A stretch of DNA of 40,622 bases from Candidatus Zipacnadia bacterium (GTDB lineage Bacteria > Armatimonadota > Zipacnadia > Zipacnadales > UBA5352): NCBI GenBank assembly GCA_029820295.1, contig JALGVA010000029.1, forward strand, positions 410-41,031. Reading direction: 5' to 3'. A program made the position numbers and the translations under genes. Numbering within the stretch: the stretch's first letter is position 1; the number at the start of each line of letters is the position of its first letter. Of this stretch, positions 1,842 through 6,400 are shown piece by piece. The notes beneath the pieces were generated by a model. The model did no database searches and was not told where the DNA came from. It saw only the letters and a list, made by a program, of their open reading frames with translations.

Positions 1842-4037
1842 TCAGTCGATCTTCACCCAGTCGATGCCCTGCTTCACGTAGGTGCCGCCGCGCTCAGGCG
1901 AGGCGGTGTGATGGCCGCCACGCTCGGTCCACAGCCTAACCGGCGTGCCCTTGATGAACCACCAGTGCTCCCGCTCGGCGCCGCCGCGGTACGAGATCGC
2001 CTCGGTGATGAAGCCGTCGGCGTCGAACAGCTCCAGGCTCTGCTGCACGCCGTCACGGTCCCGGTACTCGCGGCTGACGAGACGCCTATCCGCGTAGAAG
2101 GTGCGGCGGATGGCGAGGCCGTCGGGCGTGAGGTCGTGGCGCCGCACCAGTACGCCCGCCTCGTACCACTCCCGGTGGATGACGCCATCGTAGAGGTGCA
2201 CGATCTCACGCACCGCCTCGGGCGCGGCCATCGCCTCGTCGCGTGTCGCGCCCTCGCCATCGATCAGCCAGCGGTCGGCGGTCCAGGAGAAGTCATCCGG
2301 CGGCTCGGGCAGCGCCGCCAGCCCGGTGGCCGCGGCGATGCGCACCTCGTTCGACGGCTTGCTCTCGAGGCCCGACTGCTCGACCGCGATGGCCGAGTAC
2401 GCGCCCACGCCCGGCAGGTCGAAGGTCGCCCCCGGCGCGAGCGGCTCGCTGGTGATGCGCTCACCGTTGCGCAGCAGGTGGTAGCCAGCGGTCTCGAAGT
2501 GCAGTTCGCCGGGGATCAGCTCGATGCCGCCGCCCTCGCTCTCGCGCAGCCACGGCCGGTCGGGGCGGCGCGCCACCGCGACGTAGACGTCGGTCTGCCG
2601 CTGCCAGATGAGCGGCGAGTCGCGATCGGGGAAATCCTCGCGGGTGAAGCGCGCGGGCGCCTCCATCTCCGCGATCTGCTCGTCCGGGATCATGCGCGTG
2701 TCGAAGCTGGTGACGACCCGGCCCGGCCGCAGGTCACTCGGGAACTCGCTGCGCTCACGGCGCTGCTCGTCCGTCCACTCGGCGATGGCCGCCGGTCCGG
2801 TGCGGTACATGCCGCGCGTGAGGCCCTCGAAGGTCGTCTCGGTCTTGCGTTCGTAGCCGATGACCTCGGTGCGGATGCTCAGCCGGCCCTGCTCGGGGAA
2901 GCCCTCGGTCGAGTCCACGTGGATGCCGGGGCCGGTTTCGGGCGACGAGACCTCGCTGATGGTGGCGATGGGGCCGTCGCGCAGGTCGTAGCAGCTCACG
3001 AAGCAGATCTTGGTGCCATCGGGGCTGCCCTTGGCGTCGTTGTCGTAGTAGGCGCTGTCGCCGGAGTACTGGAAGGCCGGCGAGTCGTGGATGTATGACA
3101 GTGCCATGGGCAGCACCACGTGGCCATCGCCCGAGCGCGTGTCGGCGATGACGATGGCCCCGGTGGCGCCGCTGCCGACGATGTAGCGATCGGTGCTGCC
3201 GCCGCGGCAGATGTCGCCGCAGCCGATGGCGGTCAGGAAGTGCCAGTTGCTCGGGAAGGGCTCGTCCCAGCGCCGCCCGCGCATCTGCTGGTTGCCGAAC
3301 ATGTACCAGTCGCCGCCGCCCGACCACGACTGGTGGCACTGCTGGAGGCAGGTGCTGGCGACGGCCAGGTCGCCGCCGTCTGGGTCAAAGAACAGGCGCG
3401 TGGGCTTGAAGGGCTCGAAATAGTTGCTGATGCGCGTGTACACTCGCGGATGGCCGGGGTTGGCCTCAAGCTGCCCGCCGAGCGGGATCGGCTCCGGGAC
3501 GCCGCCGCGGATGGGTACCCGCGCCCCCGGAGCGGAGGAGCCGTCGGGCATGGTGACCGCGCTGGCGTAGATCCAGGTGTCCGTGAAGTCCACACTGCCC
3601 AGGTAGCTGGACCGGCCGCGGAGCGTCTCCACGCGATCGGTGGCCATGTCCCAGCACTTGATGTCCCACAGTGCGCTGTCCTCCTCGCGCTGCACGAAGA
3701 GCAGCCACGGCTGCGCGTTGGCCCAGCGTGGGGTGTTGGCGCGCGCGAAGCTGCGCACCACCTCGCCGGTCGCCACGTCGATCACGCGCACGAACGGCCC
3801 GCCATCGCCCGAGGGGTTGAAGGCCCGCGAGCGCGTCGTGCACACGTAGCGGCCGTCGGGGCTCCAGCAGTCGCGGATGTGGTAGTTGGCCCAGTCGCGC
3901 CACGACGGGTCGTTGGTCAGCCGCCACAACTCGGTGTCGGTGTCCTGCGGCGGCATGAAGCGCTCGACCTCGGCATGCGCCGCACAGAGCACGACCAGCA
4001 GCGCGATCGTCACCAGCGTCGCCCGCACCGGGATCAC
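1842..4037 (-). CDS. Secreted TolB/WD40-like beta-propeller protein with YwqK-like tail
   Basis: I place the start at the GTG at 4037. It overlaps the upstream stop (GTGA), has a strong GGAGGGGG immediately before it, and begins a signal peptide (VRATLVTIALLVVLCAAHAE). A second in-frame GTG at 4028 is possible. The 731-residue product has TolB-like propeller blades in its first half (SPDGRYVCTTRS; SPDGTKICFVS), an Ig/FnIII-like segment around residues 520-590, and a C-terminal run of YwqK/MORN-style strands (DGVIHREWYEAG, DGLAIRRTFYADRRLVSREY). TolB-type propellers mediate protein contacts or substrate reading in the periplasm. Here the exact role is unknown; export is the only firm inference. 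Confidence 0.8.
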   Translation of the reverse strand: MIPVRATLVTIALLVVLCAAHAEVERFMPPQDTDTELWRLTNDPSWRDWANYHIRDCWSPDGRYVCTTRSRAFNPSGDGGPFVRVIDVATGEVVRSFARANTPRWANAQPWLLFVQREEDSALWDIKCWDMATDRVETLRGRSSYLGSVDFTDTWIYASAVTMPDGSSAPGARVPIRGGVPEPIPLGGQLEANPGHPRVYTRISNYFEPFKPTRLFFDPDGGDLAVASTCLQQCHQSWSGGGDWYMFGNQQMRGRRWDEPFPSNWHFLTAIGCGDICRGGSTDRYIVGSGATGAIVIADTRSGDGHVVLPMALSYIHDSPAFQYSGDSAYYDNDAKGSPDGTKICFVSCYDLRDGPIATISEVSSPETGPGIHVDSTEGFPEQGRLSIRTEVIGYERKTETTFEGLTRGMYRTGPAAIAEWTDEQRRERSEFPSDLRPGRVVTSFDTRMIPDEQIAEMEAPARFTREDFPDRDSPLIWQRQTDVYVAVARRPDRPWLRESEGGGIELIPGELHFETAGYHLLRNGERITSEPLAPGATFDLPGVGAYSAIAVEQSGLESKPSNEVRIAAATGLAALPEPPDDFSWTADRWLIDGEGATRDEAMAAPEAVREIVHLYDGVIHREWYEAGVLVRRHDLTPDGLAIRRTFYADRRLVSREYRDRDGVQQSLELFDADGFITEAISYRGGAEREHWWFIKGTPVRLWTERGGHHTASPERGGTYVKQGIDWVKID

Positions 4038-5528: not shown

Positions 5529-5867
5529 ATGGCCGACAAGCACGCGAGGACGCTGGAGGAGGCGCTGGCGGACGTCACTGCACGTGTGCATCGCTACGCC
5601 GAACACGGTCCGTACCGGCTCTTCCCGGACGACGTGGTCATCAGCAATCTCCTCGCGAAGATGGCCCGCAACCTGGTGGAGCATGGGGCGGCGTACTGCC
5701 CCTGCCGCCCGGTCACCGGCGATCCGGCTCGCGATCGCCTGAACCTGTGCCCCTGCCGCGTGCACCACAAGGAGATCGCGCGCGATGGGCATTGCGAGTG
5801 CCGGCTCTACGTCAGCGAGGACTACCTGCGACAGCGTGAGGCGGCACGTGCCGAACAGGAGGGCTGA
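5529..5867 (+). CDS. Ferredoxin:thioredoxin reductase-type catalytic subunit
   Basis: A 112-residue protein with the FTR catalytic-subunit cysteine signature: CPC at 57-59, CPC at 74-76 and CEC at 89-91. By analogy with the cyanobacterial enzyme, C57, C74, C76 and C89 would hold the [4Fe-4S] cluster and C59/C91 would form the redox-active disulfide that reduces a thioredoxin-fold partner using ferredoxin electrons. The spacings (14 and 12 residues) differ from the classical 16 and 8, and the last motif has Glu where plant-type enzymes have the CHC histidine. No variable (alpha) subunit or ferredoxin gene is visible. The start ATG follows AAGGA at six bases. It ends two bases before a thioredoxin-fold gene, which is therefore its likely partner. 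Confidence 0.88.
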   Translation: MADKHARTLEEALADVTARVHRYAEHGPYRLFPDDVVISNLLAKMARNLVEHGAAYCPCRPVTGDPARDRLNLCPCRVHHKEIARDGHCECRLYVSEDYLRQREAARAEQEG

Positions 5868-5869
5868 CG

Positions 5870-6400
5870 ATGGCGATTTCGGTCGGAAGCAAGGCGCCGG
5901 ACTTCGACCTGCCGGGCGTGGATGGTGAGACATACTCTCTCGGCAGCTTCGCGGACGCCGACGCGGTCGTGGTCATCTTTTCGTGCAACCACTGCCCGTA
6001 CGTGGTGGCGAACGAGGACCGCATGGTCCAGATCCAGGCCGACTACGCCGATCGCGGCGTGCGGCTCGTGGCGATCTGCTCCAACGACGCGGCGAAGTAC
6101 CCCGCCGACAGCTTCGATGCGATGAAGGCACGCGCGCAGGAGAAGGGCTTCAACTTCCCCTACCTGCGCGATGAGACCCAGGAGGTGGCGCGCGCCTGGG
6201 GCGCAAGCGTCACGCCCGAGGTGTTCCTGCTGGGCCCCGAGGGCACCGTGGTGTATCATGGGCGCATAGACGACAACGCGATGGCGCCCACCGCCGTCGG
6301 GCGGCATGACCTGCGTGAGGCGCTCGACGAACTGCTGGCGGGCGAGGACATCTCGGTGCCGAGGACCGAGCCGGTCGGCTGCACCATCAAGTGGAAGTAG
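5870..6400 (+). CDS. PRX_like1-type thioredoxin-fold redoxin
   Basis: A 176-residue protein with an AhpC/TSA-thioredoxin fold. The N-terminal GSKAPDFDLPGVDG is typical of redoxins. The active site is SCNHCPYV at 38-45 (a CxxC pair, C39 and C42), characteristic of the PRX_like1 subgroup. A cis-proline region SVTPEVFLL and a GPEG turn follow. No signal peptide is present, so it is cytosolic. The gene starts two bases after the FTR-type gene, so co-translation is very likely. Inference: the FTR-type protein reduces the C39-C42 disulfide. Whether the redoxin acts as peroxidase or disulfide reductase cannot be told from sequence. Confidence 0.92.
   Translation: MAISVGSKAPDFDLPGVDGETYSLGSFADADAVVVIFSCNHCPYVVANEDRMVQIQADYADRGVRLVAICSNDAAKYPADSFDAMKARAQEKGFNFPYLRDETQEVARAWGASVTPEVFLLGPEGTVVYHGRIDDNAMAPTAVGRHDLREALDELLAGEDISVPRTEPVGCTIKWK

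Follow-up and report, generated by a model that had tools for sequence, protein, structure and literature searches.

Does a stand-alone FTR-type catalytic subunit serve a redoxin of its own, rather than a general thioredoxin? Two genes in the window (the whole 40,622-nucleotide stretch of DNA that was analysed) raise this question. Both are complete and lie on the plus strand (Table 1). The first-pass annotation had placed an FTR-type gene and a PRX_like1 gene two bases apart, and coordinates, strand and family matches all agree with this: the TGA stop codon of the FTR gene occupies 5865-5867, the redoxin ATG begins at 5870, and only bases 5868-5869 separate them. An AGGAGGG sequence located 6 nt before this ATG probably provides the redoxin gene with a good Shine-Dalgarno site. 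Four relatives have overlapping stop and start codons (TGATG), as in translational coupling.

Table 1. Positions of the two genes and of their predicted functional sites in the window.
Feature	Position	Strand	Basis
FTR/FDR-type catalytic chain, 112 aa, stand-alone	5529..5867	+	PF02943, NF041072, fold match
CPC motif 1: C57 (putative cluster ligand), C59 (putative active-site Cys)	5697..5705	+	Homology; invariant 10/10; aligned to 1dj7/4tpu/7pwe
CPC motif 2: C74, C76 (putative cluster ligands)	5748..5756	+	Homology; invariant 10/10; aligned to 1dj7
C-E-C motif 3: C89 (putative ligand), C91 (putative active-site Cys)	5793..5801	+	Homology; C-E-C invariant 10/10
AGGAGGG, Shine-Dalgarno-like site for redoxin	5857..5863	+	Sequence; within 3' end of FTR gene
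PRX_like1 redoxin, 176 aa	5870..6400	+	Redoxin/AhpC-TSA, PRX_like1 structure matches
C39-N-H-C42 motif	5984..5995	+	C42 in 70/70, C39 in 68/70 homologues
C171 in C-terminal GC[TS][IV]KW motif	6380..6382	+	C in 68/69 readable homologues; S in L050

We identified the first gene product as a member of Pfam FeThRed_B (PF02943; 5.6e-17, 62 bits vs. a cut-off of 22). Its closest curated family by profile is the double-selenoprotein FtrB (NF041072; 6.9e-33), for which its score is below the curated cut-off (113 vs. 160 bits). FTRs have been described in which Sec occupies both redox-active positions (PMC2398784, PMC13188914), and in NF041072 proteins Sec replaces the two redox-active Cys. In contrast, the window protein contains no Sec: TGC Cys codons are present at both redox sites, and Cys occupies both in the window and its nine relatives (10/10).

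The features of the classical FTR catalytic chain (three CxC motifs and the FTR fold) are present. An AlphaFold model of the protein matches the ferredoxin disulfide reductases (FDRs) 7pwe, which is the best structural match, and 4tpu, as well as the FTR 1dj7. The Cys region aligns without gaps to 4tpu and 7pwe, and thus has the FDR Cys spacing. By homology, the active disulfide is predicted to consist of C59 and C91, with C57, C74, C76 and C89 as ligands of a [4Fe-4S] cluster. The chloroplast and cyanobacterial FTRs (1dj7, 2puk) share the fold and the six Cys in three CxC motifs but, unlike the window protein, they form a heterodimer with a variable subunit, have a CHC third motif and indels between motifs, and reduce thioredoxins. 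The residue between C89 and C91 is Glu90 in all ten proteins of the window's subtype, compared with CHC in 1dj7 and CYC in 4tpu and 7pwe. This replacement of His by Glu beside the predicted cluster is a natural variant for studying the FTR mechanism. A C-terminal rubredoxin-like domain was not identified, as the protein ends at residue 112.

The second gene product matches the Pfam families Redoxin (1.3e-21) and AhpC-TSA (2.1e-21). The PRX_like1 structures 3u5r, 2cvb and 2ywi match it over its whole length (1e-38 to 1e-40), and it shares with PRX_like1 proteins (cd02969; 2cvb/2ywo, 2ywi, 3u5r) the NxCP motif and the C-terminal GCxxKW (PMC3514251). This PRX-like subfamily has been described as unclear in both structure and mechanism (PMC3514251), and our literature search found solved PRX_like1 structures but no established reductant, substrate or function.

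C42 is universal among the homologues compared and C171 nearly so, whereas C39 is missing from 3u5r and two relatives. C39 and C42 had been proposed to form a CxxC in the thioredoxin register. This reading fails, as in phmmer alignments to 2l5o and 2m72 the first Cys of the thioredoxin-type CxxC is matched by C42 and the second by Val45. Because Val45 occupies that position, the partner of C42 should be either C39 or C171. C39 was also considered as a hallmark of FTR partners, and rejected because 58 of 60 PRX_like1 proteins without FTR carry it. C39, C42 and C171 are equally conserved where there is no FTR neighbour, so these Cys did not arise as an adaptation to FTR.

The pairing itself was evaluated by searching 291 genomes of the window's phylum with the NF041072 profile. 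Matches were found in 14 genomes: ten are intact FTRs of the window's subtype, three are of other types, and one is a truncated remnant. The ten intact proteins, from six family codes, all read CPC...CPC...CEC. In every one of these ten genomes the FTR gene is followed directly by a PRX_like1 gene on the same strand; the spacing is -1 nt in four genomes, 2 nt in three (including the window), and 9, 28 and 43 nt in the others. The first-pass annotation had made its proposal depend on conserved adjacency in relatives, and the adjacency is conserved. As all ten genomes show it and each has several thousand genes, it is far beyond chance. When regions of 6-14 kb from the nine relatives and 13 kb of the window were compared all against all, no third gene was common to all ten loci; only FTR, PRX and frames overlapping them are shared. 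Thus, the pair has been kept together in otherwise unrelated surroundings.

PRX_like1 is encoded in 119 of the 291 genomes (1e-20), usually without FTR, and an intact C-E-C FTR was found in no genome of the 291 that lacks PRX_like1. In each of the ten FTR genomes the sole PRX_like1 copy (E <= 1e-20) is the FTR neighbour. Of the three FTRs that belong to other types, L020 (G242) and L021 (G271) have a C-terminal rubredoxin-like domain and one has CHC; none of the three adjoins PRX_like1. The distribution of the pair is patchy (in the window's family one genome of ten has it, and in the order few do), and a single-protein search of genome contigs matched only two MAGs of the same order.

Two loci in the phylum have individual features. 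The remnant (L071, G034:C261, ~2715-2875, minus strand) is an FTR cut off near residue 53, immediately ahead of the first CPC. No PRX gene is present on its 5.3 kb contig; either the pair was lost together or the assembly breaks there. At L004 (G012:C81), genes that by reading encode 4Fe-4S ferredoxin-like proteins follow the pair and one for a molybdopterin oxidoreductase resembling formate dehydrogenase precedes it; neither occurs at the other loci.

Outside the phylum we used two overlapping genome samples (~100 and ~320 genomes). No close PRX_like1 neighbour was identified within ~1.5 kb at the 37 FTR loci fetched, which are of other FTR types (many are FDRs with a rubredoxin-like tail), and at one of the loci examined (L117) there is a weak redoxin-like match near the FTR (23% identity, E 3e-4). 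Absence of the pair outside the phylum is weak evidence, as each family was represented by about one or two genomes. Proteins that combine an FTR catalytic domain with a rubredoxin-like domain at the C-terminus are common in the sampled bacterial genomes. The nearest single-domain FTR relatives outside the phylum sit in other gene contexts. CHC-type single-domain FTRs from another phylum were found at L112 (G313:C119), L131 and L132; at L112 the gene, by reading, follows one for an aldehyde:ferredoxin-oxidoreductase-like protein and precedes an ispE-like gene. The FTR protein had no match in plasmids or phages, and the FTR profile had none in viral contigs.

To follow the history of the pair, we constructed a tree of 70 PRX sequences (ten FTR partners and 60 without FTR). 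The ten partners fall in one clade (support 96/74) that has only two FTR-less members, L050 (G026) and L053 (G008). Their branches are long (0.76 and 0.83, respectively, vs. a median of 0.12), and L050 lacks C171 while L053 lacks C39; elsewhere among the 70, only L109 misses one of these Cys. When the tree was rebuilt with L050 or L053 singly, each was placed beside the three-genome group of the window with weak support (88/94 and 69/82). This suggests that a PRX of the FTR-coupled branch decays after loss of FTR, although it is not proof. The FTR distances are correlated with the PRX distances (r = 0.84), as expected for co-inheritance.

The gene content of the ten genomes fits a ferredoxin-rich anaerobic cell; some genomes are incomplete. 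Genes for 2-oxoacid:ferredoxin oxidoreductase (OFOR) were identified in all ten (178 of 291 phylum-wide). Heme-copper oxidase (COX1) was identified in none of the ten (191 of 291 phylum-wide), nor was a bd oxidase. Among the PRX carriers examined, oxidases occur in 0/10 with FTR vs. 51/60 of the others (Fisher p ~2e-7, ignoring relatedness). Few independent origins (one clade) underlie this association, so it cannot become significant when relatedness is taken into account. The variable (alpha) subunit of FTR (PF02941) was detected in none of the ten genomes, with a positive Synechococcus control, so the description of the FTR as stand-alone holds.

We consider it probable that the two genes provide an anaerobic bacterium with a ferredoxin-fed disulfide relay. 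In this relay the FTR-type subunit would receive single electrons at its [4Fe-4S] cluster from reduced ferredoxin (e.g., from OFOR). It would then use the cluster together with the C59-C91 disulfide to cleave a disulfide of PRX_like1, with C59 attacking Cys42 if the FTR mechanism applies by homology. The reduced PRX_like1 would pass electrons to a target of its own; a protein thiol or disulfide in oxidised form is the more likely target, and peroxide a possible one. We infer the cluster, the ferredoxin donor, the direct transfer from FTR to PRX and the final acceptor. At L067 (G248) the frames of the two genes are in register, and an AlphaFold model of the read-through FTR-PRX chain has well-predicted domains (mean pLDDT of ~90 or higher for both) and a pTM of 0.66; this pseudo-complex was built with unpaired rows and no cluster, and its pTM is little above the level of two unoriented domains.

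The identity of the acceptor leads to a variant of the relay, in which PRX_like1 is a ferredoxin-fed peroxidase: Cys42 attacks peroxide, and FTR recycles the enzyme as a defence independent of NAD(P)H. Membership of the redoxin in the AhpC-TSA/Redoxin family is in keeping with this, and such a defence is plausible in the genomes without heme-copper or bd oxidases to which the cassette is confined. However, the peroxidatic PxxxT/SxxC motif is absent from the redoxin, which has V35, C39 and C42 at the motif positions, and among its nearest folds beyond PRX_like1, ResA-type thiol:disulfide oxidoreductases predominate and precede BCP and 1-Cys peroxiredoxins. Judged from the missing motif, peroxide is not favoured over a disulfide as substrate; the peroxidase variant is somewhat doubtful, but still a serious alternative.

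It is less likely again that the FTR reduces a general thioredoxin of which PRX_like1 is a client, the two genes being merely co-regulated stress genes. Plant and cyanobacterial FTR homologues do reduce thioredoxins, and the PRX_like1 proteins without FTR (60 of the 70 examined) must use another donor, presumably thioredoxin. Outside the phylum, a related FTR with a CLC third motif (L156, G522:C54, 352-2057, minus strand) lies directly downstream of a WCAPC thioredoxin gene. A CcdA-like membrane gene is located further upstream there, and part of that sequence is N; this is another FTR with its own redoxin, in a different lineage. On the other hand, every intact C-E-C FTR comes with PRX_like1, and the conserved unit includes no thioredoxin gene. 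NADPH thioredoxin reductase (TrxB) scores above cut-off in nine of the ten genomes, and would already cover general thioredoxin reduction there. This fits a dedicated partner of FTR, as the first-pass annotation had supposed, and so does conservation of the pair as a unit without any other shared neighbour.

Patchy distribution is what hitch-hiking of functionally unlinked genes in transferred segments, or chance, could also produce, but this is very improbable, as exactly these two genes recur in the same order in six families whose flanking regions are unrelated, four genomes have overlapping stop and start codons, and chance adjacency is rejected by the 10/10 pairing. The dedicated pairing of FTR with PRX_like1 is well supported.

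How new is the ferredoxin-fed relay? According to PMC6262447, FDRs are FTRc relatives of archaea and bacteria that reduce MaTrx5 and act beside NTR, and an FDR that supplies the class III ribonucleotide reductase of M. barkeri is cited there. The Methanosarcina FDR (4tpu; Prakash 2018 and Wei 2015, via PMC6262447) has the same FTR-catalytic-chain fold and CxC-x14-CxC-x12-CxC spacing as the window protein; both are without a variable subunit and have an NADPH thioredoxin reductase alongside. For the known enzymes a ferredoxin donor and a dedicated redoxin are reported. The 4tpu type also has a further C-terminal domain and CYC, in contrast to the window protein with no extra domain, C-E-C and a PRX_like1 partner. 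The FDR of Desulfotalea psychrophila (7pwe) is likewise linked to a thioredoxin-fold partner of its own, but as an N-terminal glutaredoxin fusion, and with CYC, rather than as an adjacent gene for a PRX_like1 redoxin. The window redoxin differs from described PRX_like1 proteins in being tied to an FTR gene.

The pathway had been put forward as not widely described. Going by PMC6262447 and 7pwe, this does not apply to FDRs with dedicated redoxins, which are published. It does apply to the PRX_like1 partner and the C-E-C subtype, no description of which was found in our literature search. Thus, the concept of a redoxin dedicated to an FTR-type enzyme is already known, and the novelty is the PRX_like1 partner and the C-E-C subtype.

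The fixed partnership with a predicted ferredoxin-dependent reductase gives the PRX_like1 family a likely power source that can be tested directly. The partnership would also take electron flow from ferredoxin to thiols in bacteria beyond thioredoxin and glutaredoxin partners. More tentatively, the C-E-C FTR subtype dedicated to PRX_like1 may constitute an NAD(P)H-independent, ferredoxin-driven pathway for peroxide or disulfide repair that is characteristic of a set of anaerobic lineages and provides this PRX_like1 branch with its so far missing electron donor.
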